DNA of 64,000 nt, taken from positions 1 through 64,000 of the forward strand of contig NZ_JALGQH010000012.1 of NCBI RefSeq assembly GCF_022810305.1, read 5' to 3'. Positions 8,613-63,511 of the stretch are shown here, piece after piece. Positions within the stretch are counted from its first letter, which is position 1. Every line of letters begins with the position of its first letter. This DNA comes from Rhodococcus sp. ARC_M6. Lineage in GTDB: Bacteria > Actinomycetota > Actinomycetes > Mycobacteriales > Mycobacteriaceae. Position numbers and translations under genes: made by a program. Below the pieces are notes generated by a model, which made no database searches, had not been told where the DNA came from, and saw only the letters and a list, made by a program, of their open reading frames with translations.

Positions 8613-8652
8613 GGCTGATTCCCTTATGCGGCTTTCCGTTTGGGAATCAGCC
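8613..8652. terminator. Shared hairpin between the 26-aa peptide gene and the MFS gene
   Basis: GGCTGATTCCC (8613-8623) and GGGAATCAGCC (8642-8652) form an 11-bp perfect stem around an 18-base loop. It lies between two convergent genes and includes the last codons of the MFS gene, so it can serve both. No long T-tract is present. Confidence 0.5.
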
Positions 8653-10054
8653 ACGCGAACAACATGGTGGCGCCCGCGGCGATGATGGAGATCAGGAACG
8701 TCGCTCTGAACATGTCGAGTGTCGGGAAAATGCGGTCGTGGACAACAATCGTGGCGCCGGCCAATACGACGCTCACGACAGCGGCGGAACTCGACGTTCC
8801 GATCGATCGCATCAGTGAGTTCAACCCGTTGGCAGCAGCTGATTCGGTGATCGGCACCGCTCCCATGATCAGGGCGGGCATGGACGAAAATGTCAGCCCG
8901 ACGCCGGCACCGATGATCATTCCGGCCAGTACGATCTGCCAGACCGTCGACGTCGCGAAATATGCGACGGCATAACCGAGTCCGACGATGAAGCCCCCCA
9001 CAGTCAAGGTGATCCGGGGCCCTTTCCACATCGAGAGTCGAGCCGAGACCGGTGAGAGCGCCATCATGACAAGGCCACCCGGTGCGAGCGCCAACCCGGC
9101 GGCGACCATGGAAAGACCCATTCCATAGCCAGTTTCCTTGGGCGCCATCAGAAGTTGTGGGAATGACAACGAGTTTCCGTACATCGCAAACCCGACCGAT
9201 ATCGATGCAAGGTTTGTAAACAGGATCTGTTTTCGGGCGGCGATGCGCAGGTTGACCAGCGGCGCATCCAGTCGCAGTTCCCACAGTCCCCAGATAACAA
9301 AGATTACTACCGACGCCGCAAGCAGTCCTAAAGTCTTCGGATCACTCCATCCCCAGGTTCCGCCCTTGGTGATGGGGAGAAGTAATGCAATCAGGCCGGC
9401 CGCCAGTCCCAGTGCGCCGATGAAGTCGAAGCGGCCCGGACGGCGCACCGTGGACTCCGGAATGACGAAGTACACGGACAACATGCAAATGATTCCGAGT
9501 ATTGCGGATACGACGAACAGGTAGTGCCAATCGGCGGTCTGGGCGATGATTGCGGCGACAGGGAGGCCGATCGCGCCACCGACGCCCAATGTGGCGCTCA
9601 TGACGGCCATGGCGCCGCCCACCTTCTTGGGTGGCAGAACGTCGCGCAGGATGGCAATGCCCAGCGGGATTGCGCCCACGGATGCGCCCTGGAGTACTCG
9701 GCCGATCACCAGCACGATGAGGGAGGGCGCCAAGGCGCAGATGACGGAACCGATGACAACTAAGCCGAGGCTGGCCAGGATCATTAGTTTCTTGCCGAAC
9801 ATGTCGCCGAGGCGACCACTGATGGGCGTGATCACGGCGGCGGCGAGGAGTGTCGCGGTGATTGCCCACGAGGTGTCGGACGGGGAGGCGTCGAGCAAGC
9901 TCGGCAGTTGCGGAATGATCGGGACGACCAACGTTTGCATCAATGCAACGACGATCCCGCAGAGTCCCAGGACGGTCAGGATCAGTCGCGGTTTCACGGT
10001 TGGCGCCGGGTCGGCGTGAGTGCCCGCATTCAGTGGATCTGCGTGGACGGACAT
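8624..10054 (-). CDS. MFS multidrug exporter (14-helix DHA2 / EmrB-QacA type)
   Basis: This 476-aa membrane protein has about 14 hydrophobic segments. It contains the MFS motif A GRLGDMFGKKLM after helix 2, VIGRVLQGASVGAIPLGIAILRDVLPPKK, and the helix-5 motif-C-like block GVGGAIGLPVAAIIAQ. These point to proton-coupled drug export across the inner membrane. GGGAG precedes the ATG at 10054. The gene is divergent from a MarR regulator across an 87-bp region with a 33-bp dyad, so it is the likely target of that regulator. Substrates cannot be read from sequence. Confidence 0.88.
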   Translation of the reverse strand: MSVHADPLNAGTHADPAPTVKPRLILTVLGLCGIVVALMQTLVVPIIPQLPSLLDASPSDTSWAITATLLAAAVITPISGRLGDMFGKKLMILASLGLVVIGSVICALAPSLIVLVIGRVLQGASVGAIPLGIAILRDVLPPKKVGGAMAVMSATLGVGGAIGLPVAAIIAQTADWHYLFVVSAILGIICMLSVYFVIPESTVRRPGRFDFIGALGLAAGLIALLLPITKGGTWGWSDPKTLGLLAASVVIFVIWGLWELRLDAPLVNLRIAARKQILFTNLASISVGFAMYGNSLSFPQLLMAPKETGYGMGLSMVAAGLALAPGGLVMMALSPVSARLSMWKGPRITLTVGGFIVGLGYAVAYFATSTVWQIVLAGMIIGAGVGLTFSSMPALIMGAVPITESAAANGLNSLMRSIGTSSSAAVVSVVLAGATIVVHDRIFPTLDMFRATFLISIIAAGATMLFAWLIPKRKAA

Positions 10055-10106
10055 GTAACTCCCGATGAAATTGCGCGGTGCCTGGCTGTGCGGCAGGAAC
10101 TCTAAG

Positions 10107-10139
10107 TGTGCACGCTACACATTATGTGTATCCTGCACA
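10107..10139. promoter_or_regulatory. 33-bp dyad operator for the MarR regulator
   Basis: Two nested inverted repeats share one centre at 10123. The outer pair is TGTGCA (10107-10112) with TGCACA (10134-10139), and the inner pair is TACACA (10116-10121) with TGTGTA (10125-10130). The site lies between the divergent MFS and MarR genes and ends three bases before the MarR start. Autorepression and control of the exporter by occlusion are therefore likely. MarR dimers are known to bind such 16-20 bp palindromes; here two half-site pairs may bind one or two dimers. Confidence 0.75.
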
Positions 10140-10141
10140 AT

Positions 10142-10633
10142 ATGACCGCCGTGCAAGAACCGACGCCTGATCGAAACAGTGATTTGGTCGATATCGAGTA
10201 CGAACTGACTTTGTTGTCGCGATATCACGCACTGGCTCAACGCGCGGAGCTTCATCTGGACCGTTCCGCTTATCTCTTGCTCGGGCGTCTCGAACTGGAC
10301 CATCCCAAGAGCCTCAAAGAATTGTCTTGCGCATTCTCCTTGGATATCTCGACCATCAATCGTCAGATCGGTGCGCTTCGACGCCAAGGACTGGTTGAGC
10401 GCGTCGAAGATCCCGAAGGCGGTTTGGCTCGAAAAGTTCAGCCGACGGCCGCAGGGTTGTCGAAACTCCGTGCGGACCGCGAGCATTCGATTGTCGGCGT
10501 CGAAAGGGTACTGGGGGATTGGTCGCCGGACTCGCGACGCGCGCTCAGTGAACTTCTGCGGCAATTCAATCAATCAGTCGAGAAACTCGAGGGCCGAGAG
10601 TGGCCGCGACCGAATCCGGTGGATCAGGTCTGA
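10142..10633 (+). CDS. MarR-family transcriptional regulator
   Basis: The start MTAVQEPTPDRNSDLVDIEYEL gives 163 aa. Earlier in-frame starts lie inside the operator and add an odd MCTLHIMCILHN stretch. The winged helix runs over about residues 45-110: the LLGRLELDHPKSLKELSCAFSLDISTINRQIGALRRQGLVERVEDPEGGLARKVQPTAAG region gives the recognition helix (STINRQIGALRRQGLV) and wing. The C-terminal helix (SRRALSELLRQFNQSVEKL) is the dimerisation part. It most likely represses itself and the divergent MFS exporter and is relieved by a small molecule. Confidence 0.85.
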   Translation: MTAVQEPTPDRNSDLVDIEYELTLLSRYHALAQRAELHLDRSAYLLLGRLELDHPKSLKELSCAFSLDISTINRQIGALRRQGLVERVEDPEGGLARKVQPTAAGLSKLRADREHSIVGVERVLGDWSPDSRRALSELLRQFNQSVEKLEGREWPRPNPVDQV

Positions 10634-10929
10634 GAACCAGACAAACTCGAATCAGGTTCGGGCGCAATGACAACAAGCTTCGGATGATCCTCCGGAGACG
10701 AATGGTTTCCGCGCCACGACATCAGTGACCACCGCGAAAGTCCGGACAACGCCGAGCCCAGGCTGGCGAATGATCCGGAACTGAGCAATGACGCGGTCGA
10801 GCCGATACTTCCGACGGACAGAACCGAGAAGGCACTCCCGATCGAGAGGATCGAGTACGCGCTACCGATCGAGAGAATCGATCCTTCGGAGCGAATCGAC
10901 AAAATGGATCTACTTCGTGAATGTCCCAT
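10624..10929 (-). CDS. Ser-x-x triplet-repeat protein (22 consecutive triplets)
   Basis: This short protein (101 aa from the ATG at 10929, 111 aa from one at 10959) is dominated by 22 uninterrupted Ser-x-x triplets. The triplets cluster as 9-residue units of the type SILSIGSAY, SILSIGSAF and SVLSVGSIG, and they degenerate towards SGLSRWSLM. After them comes a hydrophilic tail rich in Pro, Asp and Ser (EDHPKLVVIAPEPDS). The strict period of three with Leu/Ile at the third place suggests a narrow beta-helix or solenoid, or a membrane- or wall-associated fibre. No signal peptide is clear. The start is uncertain because AAGGA abuts the ATG. Its 3' end overlaps marR by 10 bp, convergently. I cannot name the family. 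Confidence 0.6.
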   Translation of the reverse strand: MGHSRSRSILSIRSEGSILSIGSAYSILSIGSAFSVLSVGSIGSTASLLSSGSFASLGSALSGLSRWSLMSWRGNHSSPEDHPKLVVIAPEPDSSLSGSQT

Positions 10930-10961
10930 TCCTTGGTCTATCACGGCACGGAACCACACAA

Positions 10962-10992
10962 AAGAGGCCCGCCGAAATTCGGCGGGCCTCTT
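10962..10992 (-). terminator. Strong intrinsic terminator of the secreted-protein gene
   Basis: AAGAGGCCCGCCGAA (10962-10976) and TTCGGCGGGCCTCTT (10978-10992) form a 15-bp perfect stem with a one-base centre. On the minus strand it is followed by TTTTGTGT. It ends transcription of the gene at 11013-11792. It lies only about 32 bp before the triplet-repeat gene, leaving little room for that gene's own promoter. Confidence 0.85.
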
Positions 10993-11012
10993 CTTGCGTT
11001 GCGTGTGTCAGA

Positions 11013-11792
11013 TCAAGCGACCGCGAACATGCCTATGGTCGGCAGGAAACTGCAGGTGATGCGCTCTGCGCCCTCAGGCTGTGTGGTCAGCGAACCGCTG
11101 ATCACGGACAGTACGCGTCCCGGACCGGTGTCGGCGATTGCCGACAACGTGGCGGGGCCGTCCGGGTTGATACGGGCAGCGTTGGTGAGGTTCTGGGTAG
11201 CGCCGCGCTGGTTGTCGATGTTGATCCAGGTGACCGTCATCGGTACCGGCTGGTCGTCGGTAGCCGGAGCGGTTCCGAGGGCCGTGAAGACAAATCCGGC
11301 CTGACCGGCGGCAGGTCCCGGAGGCGGCAGGTGTGCCGGGCCGGGAACAGCGAGGGCGGTGCCGACGGAATCGGCGGTCGCGCCGATGCAGCCCTTGCCC
11401 AATGTGGGGTAGAGGAACTGGGCGATGACGGGTGCGTTCTCGTTCGGAATTTCCGGTCCGCCGCCGCCGCTGCCGTCGAGGAAGGTGATGACCTTCTCGA
11501 GGGTGGCCTTGAGTTCAGGCGGAAGTCCTGCGGAATTAAGAATCGCACGGGCCTGGTCGAGCAGTGCGGCCTGCGGGTTGCCGGCGACCTGCATGTTGCC
11601 GGTGGCATCCACGGGACCAGCTGCTGCGCCGATGATGGCGGGGGCAAATGATGCCAGGAACTCGATCGGCACACTTCCTGGTGCCGGCGGAGCGGCCGGA
11701 TCGGCCATCGCCTGTGCCGGCAATGCCAGTCCTGCTACTGCGGCAATTGCGACGGCGGTGAACGCCTTACGCATACCTCGGGTTCGAAGCAC
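11013..11792 (-). CDS. Secreted Ala/Pro-rich protein of unknown function
   Basis: The protein is about 259 aa from the GTG at 11792, which GGGGA precedes by a few bases; an ATG at 11774 (MRKAFTAVAIAAVAGLALPAQAMA) is the alternative. Either start leaves a clear Sec signal peptide with an AMA-DP cleavage site. The mature part starts Pro/Ala-rich (PAAPPAPGSVPIEFL), has a conserved-looking core PTLGKGCIGATADSVGTALAVPGPA, a WINIDNQRGATQ strand and ends SFLPTIGMFAVA. Two Cys residues (in KGCIG and ITCSF) may form a disulfide outside the cell. In M. tuberculosis a pair of Ala/Pro-rich exported proteins precedes mutT2, so this could be the counterpart. Confidence 0.7.
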   Translation of the reverse strand: MLRTRGMRKAFTAVAIAAVAGLALPAQAMADPAAPPAPGSVPIEFLASFAPAIIGAAAGPVDATGNMQVAGNPQAALLDQARAILNSAGLPPELKATLEKVITFLDGSGGGGPEIPNENAPVIAQFLYPTLGKGCIGATADSVGTALAVPGPAHLPPPGPAAGQAGFVFTALGTAPATDDQPVPMTVTWINIDNQRGATQNLTNAARINPDGPATLSAIADTGPGRVLSVISGSLTTQPEGAERITCSFLPTIGMFAVA

Positions 11793-12037
11793 TGTTTCCC
11801 CATCCATTGGTCATACTGCGCAGATGCCGGGGCACCCACGTTTGACGGCTCGAGGGGTCACTCTATGTACAGAGCCCCCGGGTTGTACAGCTGTTCAGTT
11901 TCTGATCAGCTACGGATCCCGCAGGAGTCTATTACATGACTGGCCCCGATATGATTTCTCGGCGACCATACCTGTGGCAGAAGTGATCTATGTGAATGTT
12001 GATGCAACTGTTATGTCGGCTTATTCAGTTTCGGGGC

Positions 12038-12337
12038 TTACCGGCTCACGAAATTCTGAATGAGGGCATCAATTTTCCGAGCAAACTTTACATCGAGTTC
12101 GGTGATACCCCCGGCCGAATGGGTCGACAGTGTGTAGGTGACTTTTCGCCAGCGGACGTCGATATCGGGGTGATGATCGGCGGCCTCGGCAGCGGCGGCG
12201 ACCTCTTGCAGGAGCGCGATTGCGTCCGGGAAGGTCGAGGATTCGACGGTGCGCGCGATGGCATCTCCGGTGCGGTGCCATTCGGGTAGGTCGTCGAGGG
12301 CTGCGAGAATTTCGGAATCGGACATCACGGTGGCCAT
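12038..12337 (-). CDS. phhB: Pterin-4a-carbinolamine dehydratase
   Basis: This 99-aa protein is the normal PCD/DCoH length. It shows LPEWHRTGDAIARTVESSTFPDAIALLQEVAAAAEAADHHPDIDVRWRKVTYTLSTH, which includes the [E/D]xxxHHPxxxxxYxxVxxxxxTH signature with the paired active-site His residues, then GGITELDVKFARKID. It dehydrates 4a-hydroxytetrahydropterins in cofactor recycling. It is divergent from mutT, whose start lies 16 bp away. The phhB-mutT neighbourhood matches M. tuberculosis Rv1159A-mutT2. Confidence 0.92.
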   Translation of the reverse strand: MATVMSDSEILAALDDLPEWHRTGDAIARTVESSTFPDAIALLQEVAAAAEAADHHPDIDVRWRKVTYTLSTHSAGGITELDVKFARKIDALIQNFVSR

Positions 12338-12353
12338 ACTCCATCATGGTGTC

Positions 12354-12779
12354 ATGAGCGACGAGCCTGCAAGGGTGTCCGTAGTGGTGGCCGGCGCGAT
12401 CTTCCGCGACGGCCGGCTGCTGCTGGCGCAGCGCGTCCGGCCACCGGAGTTGGCCGGCAAATGGGAGCTGCCGGGCGGGAAGGTCGAGGAGTTCGAGTCG
12501 CCGCCGGAAGCGCTGGAGCGAGAATTAGCGGAAGAACTGGGCGTCGAGGTTCGGTGTGGATCCCGGATCGGCGTCGATGTTGCACTCGGTCAGGGGCGAG
12601 TGTTGCGGGCGTATCGCGTCGACATGCCGGAAGGCGAGCCCGAGGCGCTTGATCACGCGCAACTCGCGTGGGTCGACGCGGACAGCTTGGAAAAGTTCGA
12701 TCTGGTGGCGAATGACGAGGCCTGGGTCCCGGATCTGCTCGCCGAATTGCGATCGCTCAGGCAGCCCGAGCCTTCTTGA
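12354..12779 (+). CDS. mutT2: MutT-type NUDIX pyrophosphohydrolase
   Basis: The 141 aa start at MSDEPARVSVVVAGAIF. A complete Nudix box begins at GKVEEFESPPEALERELAEELGV (Gx5Ex7REUxEExGU, all key residues present). The strand LLLAQRVRPPELAGKWELPGG before it is typical of MutT proteins that hydrolyse 8-oxo-dGTP or dCTP derivatives. Length, context beside phhB and the short C-terminus (PWVPDLLAEL-like end) agree with mycobacterial MutT2. The start is the ATG shared by a short leader; no strong ribosome binding site is visible. Its 3' end overlaps the convergent Cys-rich gene by 23 bp. Confidence 0.85.
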   Translation: MSDEPARVSVVVAGAIFRDGRLLLAQRVRPPELAGKWELPGGKVEEFESPPEALERELAEELGVEVRCGSRIGVDVALGQGRVLRAYRVDMPEGEPEALDHAQLAWVDADSLEKFDLVANDEAWVPDLLAELRSLRQPEPS

Positions 12780-52369: not shown

Positions 52370-52440
52370 GTGACTGACGGACAGCGTGTGACTGACGGAC
52401 AGCGTGTGACTGACGGACAGCGTGTGACTGACGGACAGCG
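52370..52440 (+). repeat. 18-bp tandem repeat, four copies, at the htrA start
   Basis: GTGACTGACGGACAGCGT occurs three times in full at 52370, 52388 and 52406, and a fourth time at 52424 with its last base changed. In frame it encodes VTDGQR repeated. Each copy begins with a GTG start codon. The copies look identical, so the array is recent or kept by slippage. Confidence 0.95.
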
Positions 52441-62167: not shown

Positions 62168-63511
62168 ATGTTCGGATCCGGGCCGTCGACAGACGATCTG
62201 CATGCTGGGCCGGAACTCGAACAGATACTGCGTGAACACGCGTACCGGGGCGCGTACCTCCAACTCGGGGTGCGTGGCGTGCTGGTCGTGTTCATAGCGT
62301 CGACGCTGATCGTTGTTCCGCCGGCTCACGGTTCCGGGTGGTGCTTTCTCATCCTCGGGTTGTACGTGAGCTGGTGTGTGGGCCTTGCTCTGTGGATCGG
62401 GCACACATCTCCCTTCGCTTCGCTCAACCGGCACACATCTCCCTTCGCTTCGCTCAACCGGCACACATCTCCCTTCGCTTCGCTCAACCGGCACACGGGT
62501 GCAGGCCCGGTGAACGCGCTCTGGCTCGGTCTTCTCGTCGACCTGGCAGTGCTCGCGACCCTGACCTTGTTGACGGGACTTACCGCGCAGGAAAGCTGGA
62601 CCGCGGACATCCTCTGCAACGGACTCTTCGTGATTCCCGTTCTGGCCTGCACTCAACTGCGGACCGACATTTGCGCAGCGATCGTCGCCGCCACAATCGC
62701 AGTCTTCTTTGCCGCGAGTTGGGCGACGATGGCCTCCAACGAGGAACCGTGGGCGTCGATTCTGCTCAGCACCACGGCTCTGGCAGCACTCGGAGTAGGT
62801 GCCGTCGGGTTGACGCGAATCCAACGATCTCGGGTTCTGACAATCGCCGAGTTGGTGGGGCACCGTACAAGCCTTCTCGCGGAGCTGATGAGCCTCGAGC
62901 AACGTCAGCGTAGAGCGCTGTCGGAACAGCTGCATGACGGCGCTCTGCAGTACGTTCTTGTCGCCCGGATGGACATCGACGAGCTGGGAACAAGTGTAGA
63001 TCCCCTTGTCCGGCAACGTGCACTTCAAGCATTGAGCGAGGCAACCACCTTGCTGAGATCCTCGGTTGCAGAGCTACATCCGACGGTTCTGGGTCACGTG
63101 GGTCTGGCACGGGCGATCGGAGACGTGGCGCGATCCGTGGAAGGCCGTGGAGGTTTGGCGGTAGCGGTCGAGGCGTCCCGCTGGAGGGACGACTTGCGTA
63201 CCTCGGCGGACGATATCTTGTTCGGTGCGGCACGGGAGTTGCTGAACAACGTCGTCAAACATGCTGCGGCAGCGAATGTTCGCATCGAGCTTTCAGCGTC
63301 GGATCGGATAGCTGTTCTGACGGTGACAGACGACGGTCGCGGCATCAGCAGCGACAAGATTGCGGCCAGTCAGGGACGTGGCCATATCGGTCTTCTGTCA
63401 CATCAACTGCGGGTTGTCGCGGCCGGCGGTTCATTCTCGATCGGACCGGGGGAGCCAACGGGAACCGTTGCGCGCGTGGAGTTACCGTTCGAAATTGTTG
63501 ACGACCGATGA
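62168..63511 (+). CDS. NarL-type sensor histidine kinase
   Basis: The 447 aa run from ATG 62168, chosen because AGGAGG stands five bases upstream. Six or so transmembrane segments occupy residues 25-205. The 10-residue repeat HTSPFASLNR is in an early loop (residues 79-108). The cytosolic part has the HisKA_3 box EQRQRRALSEQLHDGALQYVLVARMDID with phosphorylated H256, and HATPase blocks ELLNNVVKHAAAANVRI, VTDDGRGI and GRGHIGLLSHQLRVVAAGGSF. It phosphorylates a LuxR-type response regulator, which is not directly adjacent. The signal is unknown. Confidence 0.9.
   Translation: MFGSGPSTDDLHAGPELEQILREHAYRGAYLQLGVRGVLVVFIASTLIVVPPAHGSGWCFLILGLYVSWCVGLALWIGHTSPFASLNRHTSPFASLNRHTSPFASLNRHTGAGPVNALWLGLLVDLAVLATLTLLTGLTAQESWTADILCNGLFVIPVLACTQLRTDICAAIVAATIAVFFAASWATMASNEEPWASILLSTTALAALGVGAVGLTRIQRSRVLTIAELVGHRTSLLAELMSLEQRQRRALSEQLHDGALQYVLVARMDIDELGTSVDPLVRQRALQALSEATTLLRSSVAELHPTVLGHVGLARAIGDVARSVEGRGGLAVAVEASRWRDDLRTSADDILFGAARELLNNVVKHAAAANVRIELSASDRIAVLTVTDDGRGISSDKIAASQGRGHIGLLSHQLRVVAAGGSFSIGPGEPTGTVARVELPFEIVDDR
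62401..62490 (+). repeat. 30-bp tandem repeat, three perfect copies, inside the sensor kinase gene
   Basis: The unit begins GCACACATCTCCCTTCGCTT and ends CGCTCAACCG; copies start at 62401, 62431 and 62461, and a partial GCACAC follows. The unit length is a multiple of three, so the frame is kept and HTSPFASLNR is repeated three times. The copies appear identical at the DNA level, including silent positions. Confidence 0.95.

Follow-up and report, generated by a model that had tools for sequence, protein, structure and literature searches.

The 64,000-nucleotide stretch of the Rhodococcus sp. ARC_M6 genome analyzed here (the whole stretch is hereafter the window) contains a minus-strand frame in which every third residue is serine for 66 residues. 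Does this pattern belong to a gene under selection, and if so, what kind of protein does it encode? The original prediction regarded it as an old, selected repeat of no known family, and considered a slim beta-solenoid or an ice-like or wall-binding ladder conceivable.

Reading frame and nine-residue unit

The gene, here called SxxS, occupies 10627..10929 on the minus strand, with an ATG at 10929 and a stop codon at 10624-10626. It encodes 101 residues (MGHSRSRSILSIRSEGSILSIGSAYSILSIGSAFSVLSVGSIGSTASLLSSGSFASLGSALSGLSRWSLMSWRGNHSSPEDHPKLVVIAPEPDSSLSGSQT) in an open frame that is kept in relatives and has low pN/pS. Residues 8-73 (10711..10908, minus strand) form an array of 22 uninterrupted Ser-x-x triplets, or 66 residues, confirming the predicted extent, strand, and frame. 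The run far exceeds chance: across all six frames of the window, the second-longest run with any one residue at every third position has 7 triplets, and Ser-x-x runs in base-shuffled windows (n = 20) are at most 5 triplets. The gene is easily missed, because a simple codon-based gene caller (our own script) left the array without a gene in 14 of 40 distant regions and called a gene on the opposite strand over it in 7 of the 40.

The repeat has a nine-residue unit, S-[VI]-L-S-[IV]-G-S-x-G, and residues 17-43 of the window protein read SILSIGSAY, SILSIGSAF, and SVLSVGSIG. The predicted nine-residue grouping is real. Among 56 distant members, identity between non-serine residues is 0.40 at a lag of 9, 0.33 at 18, and 0.23 at 27, versus 0.09-0.18 at the remaining multiples of three up to 39 (including lag 36). 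These members are script-found arrays in the best matches with returned loci (L104-L126, L129-L156, L197-L206, and L208), after omission of L125, L131, and L132 (duplicate places), L202 (its array is that of L126), L115 and L203 (arrays off-center in their loci), L207 (an SVG microsatellite-like array), and L209 and L210 (second matches of L201 and L200, respectively). The 191 anchored units of this set give S-[VIFA]-[LA]-S-[IV]-G-S-x-G, where the anchor itself fixes [LA] at position 3, [IV] at position 5, and G at position 6. Position 8 is the most variable, with T, S, R, E, and K occurring besides V, I, and A. The third position of the triplets is most often glycine (491 of ∼1262), and proline and aspartate make up 0.1% and 0.8% of array residues.

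The nonapeptide acts as an indel unit. Across 77 Nocardiaceae sequences, the distance between two anchors (E15 to W67 in window numbering) is 54 residues in 58, 45 in 18, and 60 in one, with two rows assigned by eye. The spacing of 45 instead of 54 means that 18 of the 77 lack exactly one unit, and all 17 of these that were traced to source titles are Nocardia. In L058, L087, and other Nocardia loci, the array is prolonged N-terminally with arginine replacing glycine (L087: SVLSTRSHRSILSFRSERS), indicating that there is also a basic version of the unit. At the DNA level, a section of the array is a tandem repeat with a 27-bp unit. Elsewhere in the window are two perfect tandem arrays, one of a 30-bp unit in 3.2 copies (62400-62496; GGCACACATCTCCCTTCGCTTCGCTCAACC) and the other of an 18-bp unit in 3.9 copies (52370-52440).

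Conservation and reach of the family

Homologs in the same frame are near-universal in the genus. A genome search returned a match in the window's own genome and in 23 of 24 other Rhodococcus genomes; the single genome without one is 75% complete. At the best 80 of at least 132 loci, source titles are all Rhodococcus, Nocardia, Aldersonia, or Antrihabitans, and 76 of these 80 make up alignment A1, from which identical sequences were removed. Of the 28 columns invariant among the 77 Nocardiaceae sequences, 27 are within the array. Each of the 22 array serine columns is at least 94% serine where the position exists, and many residues between serines are as conserved as the serines. Toward the C-terminal end, F54, S56, G58, S59, A60, S62, G63, L64, S65, R66, W67, S68, L69, and W72 each occur in 90% or more of the 77. 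The C-terminal part of the array is thus specialized position by position. The original prediction took a decay of the repeat toward the C-terminus as a sign of age; the repeat is indeed old and selected, but the apparent decay is position-specific conservation.

Substitutions show constraint at the level of the protein. In 12 comparisons to the window, the array has pN of 0.007-0.22, pS of 0.07-0.70, and pN/pS of 0.10-0.35. This ratio is lower than that of the neighboring Rv1157c-family gene in nine comparisons and higher in those with the three nearest relatives. All four GGN codons are in use in invariant glycine columns, and invariant glycine and arginine codons are free at the third base. 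Serine codon class (TCN or AGY) is fixed in 16 of the 22 columns, with both classes present in the other six. We read this near-fixation as suggesting that serines seldom pass through another residue, and a DNA-level constraint would fit too. Constraint together with same-frame homologs favors an old selected repeat over fresh slippage, as was originally argued.

The family extends beyond Nocardiaceae, to other families of its class and, with less certainty, to further classes of the phylum. Within the order, matches at E ≤ 0.01 occur in 54 of 298 genomes, and many of these are weak. Profile searches were confined to Actinomycetota and used a 27-row profile (A2) to which some of the matched genomes had themselves supplied rows. 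At the level of class, 85 of 296 genomes match at E ≤ 1e-4 and 57 at E ≤ 1e-10, the latter including the window's genome and the microsatellite-like L207. At the level of phylum, 17 of 296 match at E ≤ 1e-10, seven of which are outside the class. Copy number is usually one per genome, as most second hits are weak or belong to the array already matched, although one genome (G786) has two strong matches to A2. A second weak match in the window's own genome (E 0.008) has a stop inside and was dismissed. Genus g18 of the same family, inferred to be probably Mycobacterium, has no strong match in the order and class searches. In L126 and L202, which are from one genome, the array breaks off and SxxS-like sequence continues in another frame, reflecting either a broken gene or a sequencing error.

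Because composition alone can carry a repeat profile, triplets were shuffled within each distant array (50 shuffles) and scored on a profile made solely from Nocardiaceae. Native order beat all 50 shuffles in 32 of the 56 distant members (median z 2.9) and did not in 24. The furthest members may be merely repeat-like, because 7-13 of the 50 shuffles score as high as the native arrays of L126, L198, L206, and L208. Among the seven genomes from other classes, this test is passed by two (L197 and L204) and failed by four (L126, L205, L206, and L208), with one outside the test (L203). Some of these arrays are near-perfect repeats, for which order is a weak test, but membership beyond the class is not secure. 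Within these bounds, SxxS is almost certainly a genuine small-protein family of Actinomycetota, usually single copy, with a nine-residue unit and serine at every third position.

Start codon, candidate promoter layout, and neighbors

An extended -10-like box, TGATAGACC (10935..10943, minus strand), is located 5 nt before the ATG and is a candidate promoter for a leaderless mRNA. Among the 76 Nocardiaceae loci of A1 (from the best 80 of at least 132), 74 have TGNTANACC upstream, 72 of them with an in-frame ATG 5-7 nt downstream. The hexamer in the window is TAGACC, without the T that ends TATAAT; it fails the rule used for the distant set, which requires A as second base, T as last base, and at least three of six bases as in TATAAT. 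In that set, the ATG was picked solely by its nearness to the array, and 49 of the 56 members were counted; seven had no ATG within 30 codons or too little upstream sequence. In 27 of the 49, versus 19 of 177 called neighbor genes with an ATG (whose starts are less exact), a -10-like hexamer precedes the ATG by exactly 6 nt. The other 22 lack a hexamer at 6 nt, and any other spacing from 2 to 45 nt is found in at most four members. Shine-Dalgarno-like sequences are present in 4 of the 49 versus 48 of the 177, and in the window an SD-like AAGGA abuts the ATG.

Scanners found neither a two-hexamer sigma-70 promoter nor a terminator at 10500-11100, and 9500-12500 has no Rfam match. The sequence slightly upstream does, however, contain a GC-rich inverted repeat with TTTT after it. 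The layout suggests that SxxS very probably has a promoter of its own that yields a leaderless mRNA starting at or next to the ATG. Leaderless genes are laid out in this way, with a -10 box about 6-7 nt ahead of the start codon and no Shine-Dalgarno site, and the layout is independent evidence for the start codon and for transcription as a separate unit. This layout predicts expression of SxxS when normal initiation is limited.

Neighboring genes are conserved among close relatives. The upstream neighbor on the same strand (11016..11807, minus strand) matches the Rv1157c family in NCBIfam (NF050168), and a gene of this family is upstream on the same strand in all 80 of the best 80 of at least 132 loci. 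A pterin-4a-carbinolamine dehydratase is present in 78 and TypA in 75 of the same 80, some of which are cut by contig ends. A convergent MarR-type regulator (10106..10633, plus strand) overlaps the end of SxxS by 10 nt; a MarR match in that place and orientation occurs in 10 of the 80 loci, all Rhodococcus. In the window, the regulator is divergent to an MFS exporter (8624-10633), a common regulator and efflux pair.

Outside Nocardiaceae, no partner gene recurs across 40 flanking regions, and for this reason context gives no clue to function. Three protein clusters reach 4-6 of these 40 loci in scattered positions and orientations, and remaining shared neighbors are in two or three loci, mostly reflecting synteny between near relatives. 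In a Pfam scan of 78 of 80 nearest-neighbor proteins (the two longest omitted), none of the 25 listed of 100 matched families is in more than three proteins. A mobile-element origin was considered and rejected, with no match in plasmid records, phage records, or IMG/VR.

Possible structures and known systems

In almost all Rhodococcus genomes covered, SxxS is subject to strong purifying selection, and it has relatives in many other Actinomycetota, yet it matches nothing in Pfam or NCBIfam. The window protein has no Pfam match at E ≤ 1 and, as the one protein searched there, none in NCBIfam. For the 27 members in A2, Pfam gave nothing beyond two isolated weak hits, to other families. PHROGs has no match to the window protein or L109; L124 has two matches of unknown function (E 4e-6 and 1e-3) inside long profiles. 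Ten sequence matches in PDB (E 0.001-0.9, the best to kinesin light chain fusions) were taken as low-complexity chance. Open-licence PMC text, searched with repeat peptide strings and through titles and abstract openings, has no account of the family; one string gave a single listed hit, to a physics paper. The family is thus undescribed in the sources searched, in line with the original prediction, and while nothing known was matched in these libraries, its fold may prove to be a variation on a beta-solenoid already known.

The array is uncharged at its center and capped at its ends. In its middle fifth, Lys/Arg and Asp/Glu are both 0.0%, in the 77 Nocardiaceae sequences and in 53 distant arrays (3 of 56 with fewer than 18 triplets omitted). 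Tryptophan and Arg/Lys are concentrated at both ends of distant arrays; in Nocardiaceae, Arg/Lys are at the N-terminal end, and Trp and Arg at the C-terminal end. The median longest uncharged stretch is 48-50 residues (distant set counted with tails). Charge-free length and capped ends could reflect membrane association, but strength of hydrophobicity depends on the scale. Over 17 residues, the Kyte-Doolittle maximum reaches 1.70 for the window protein and ranges from 1.2 to 2.1 across the 56 distant arrays, whereas the Hessa sum for the best 19 residues per distant array is +1.5 to +5.6 kcal/mol. Chou-Fasman means over the first 42 array residues weakly lean to strand (1.06) over helix (0.95). 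No signal peptide is visible by eye in the N-terminus, MGHSRSRSILS.

Tails are more variable. The Nocardiaceae-type C-terminal tail (residues 74-101, GNHSSPEDHPKLVVIAPEPDSSLSGSQT; 10627..10710, minus strand) has L85, V87, E91, P92, D93, Q100, and a final T/S conserved in the 77 sequences, with P79 in 69. It ends in H-x-Q-[TS], with H in 74 of the 77, G in the window protein and one other, and R in one; several Nocardia loci (for example, L031, L050, and L092) have CHCQT where the window has SGSQT. By eye, this tail is absent from the 21 distant rows of A2. A hydrophobic C-terminal segment (Kyte-Doolittle mean of at least 1.6 over 17 residues), often followed by Arg, is present in 21 of 56 distant members. 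On the Hessa scale, these 21 range from -0.4 to +7.3 kcal/mol and most are weakly hydrophobic. In L117, L118, and L121, which are of one family (f16; matches at ∼1470-1800), the array ends in a Cys-rich tail, ..ECDCCGSA, that is possibly metal-binding.

Our best guess, with a probability of roughly one in three, is that SxxS is a membrane-associated, self-stacking, beta-rich structural protein. Each nonapeptide would form a short strand and a turn, and units would stack so that each residue is aligned with a similar one nine or eighteen positions later. The product would be a slim, uncharged rod or sheet, rich in beta structure and bearing serine ladders, a possible but doubtful arrangement. 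Two nonapeptides per coil, resembling an RTX beta-roll but calcium-free, is the geometry easiest to imagine. With only about four to nine units, stability would need end-to-end or side-by-side self-assembly. Ends rich in Arg and Trp and, in some relatives, a hydrophobic C-terminal tail could tether the assembly to the cytoplasmic membrane on its inner side; there it would act as a structural or stress-related element, not an enzyme, and leaderless translation would keep the protein made when normal initiation falls.

Several observations weigh against this guess. AlphaFold2 with 77 sequences predicted one low-confidence helix (residues 54-73) and no strands (pLDDT 50.2, pTM 0.21), and with a single Nocardia array sequence, two long low-confidence helices and no strands (pLDDT 55.1, pTM 0.19). 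The slim beta-solenoid first imagined is therefore seen in no model, but neither model is trustworthy, and confidence this low neither shows nor excludes a solenoid. A strict period of three also fits strand alternation poorly. With regard to a C-terminal tail anchor in the membrane, 35 of 56 distant members are below the threshold, the window protein's own tail is polar, and most Hessa sums are unconvincing as spans. An ice-like or wall-binding ladder finds no evidence: there is no Pfam match, no accepted PDB match, and no signal peptide by eye.

The main rival is a helical membrane protein, in which the charge-free stretch, about twice the length of a membrane span with aromatic and cationic ends, would form either a re-entrant hairpin of two helices or, as an oligomer, a pore lined with serines. 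The Kyte-Doolittle maxima are in its favor, and helices are the sole elements that AlphaFold2 predicts. But the Hessa sums of the arrays make insertion unfavorable, a strict period of three gives an alpha helix no fixed face, and gain or loss of nine residues would rotate a helix by half a turn, so we consider it unlikely, if a serious contender. A functional amyloid or condensate segment, with no unique fold and polymerizing through cross-beta stacking of its repeats, is distinctly unlikely. Low-complexity Ile/Val/Gly/Ser repeats, a charge-free core, and the lack of a predicted fold suit it, but the residue-by-residue conservation represented by the invariant columns is stricter than expected.

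Long 3-10 helices are rare, which counts against a period-three rod, that is, a 3-10 or polyproline-II-like helix, or a bundle, with one serine face. Three residues per turn would yield exactly one stripe of serines, and the Gly-x-x bundles of Collembola antifreeze proteins (PMC10235112) show that period-three folds exist. In SxxS, however, proline is nearly absent, the strict position is Ser and not Gly, and the nine-residue period would be unexplained, making this reading quite improbable. Poorer odds still go to a substrate array, where the final product is a form with modified serines: phosphorylated, glycosylated, or dehydrated, the last as in ribosomal peptide (lanthipeptide) precursors. 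The strict conservation of the array serines is in its favor, but many inter-serine residues are equally conserved, no leader or signal is evident by eye, and no dedicated modifying enzyme is visible among the 78 nearest neighbors (25 of 100 matched families listed). Finally, that SxxS is not a gene but a DNA-level repeat open by chance would account for the 27-bp tandem repeat, the fixed serine codon classes, and an out-of-frame query that still matched two genomes, but we regard it as refuted by the low pN/pS of the array despite pS of up to 0.70, the free third bases in invariant Gly and Arg codons, and the fixed distance of the -10-like box from an in-frame ATG.

Taken as a whole, the tentative proposal, less likely than not, is of a new phylum-wide structural protein whose Ser-x-x nonapeptides may fold or polymerize into a serine-laddered, charge-free, calcium-free, membrane-held architecture, and whose production would be sustained by a conserved leaderless layout. 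If the strict Ser-x-x nonapeptide has its own fold, it adds a repeat architecture.

Relative to known systems, SxxS shares some features and departs in others. Serine-rich repeat adhesins share Ser-rich repeats with SxxS, but SxxS is small, has by eye no signal peptide or wall anchor, and has aliphatic residues between its strict serines. There is no excess at the coiled-coil lags of 21 (0.167) or 33 (0.141), measured at multiples of three, consistent with the earlier view that this is not a usual coiled coil. Likewise, for pentapeptide and hexapeptide repeat proteins there is no Pfam match and no excess in identity at lag 6 (0.17). The RTX beta-roll (PMC3034196) has a nine-residue unit with a glycine turn and an aliphatic strand position, and two units form one coil. 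SxxS has the same nine-residue period, but it lacks the conserved Asp, the Gly-Gly-x-Gly turn, a Pfam match, and, by eye, a secretion signal, and has Ser at every third residue. A strict tripeptide period is shared with the polyproline-II antifreeze proteins of Collembola (snow flea type; PMC10235112), from which SxxS differs in having Ser rather than Gly at the strict position and in its additional nine-residue period. In gene layout, SxxS resembles the leaderless small-protein genes of mycobacteria (PMC8485053) in having a -10-like box immediately ahead of the ATG and, as a rule, no Shine-Dalgarno sequence; unlike in those genes, the layout of SxxS recurs for one protein family across many genera.
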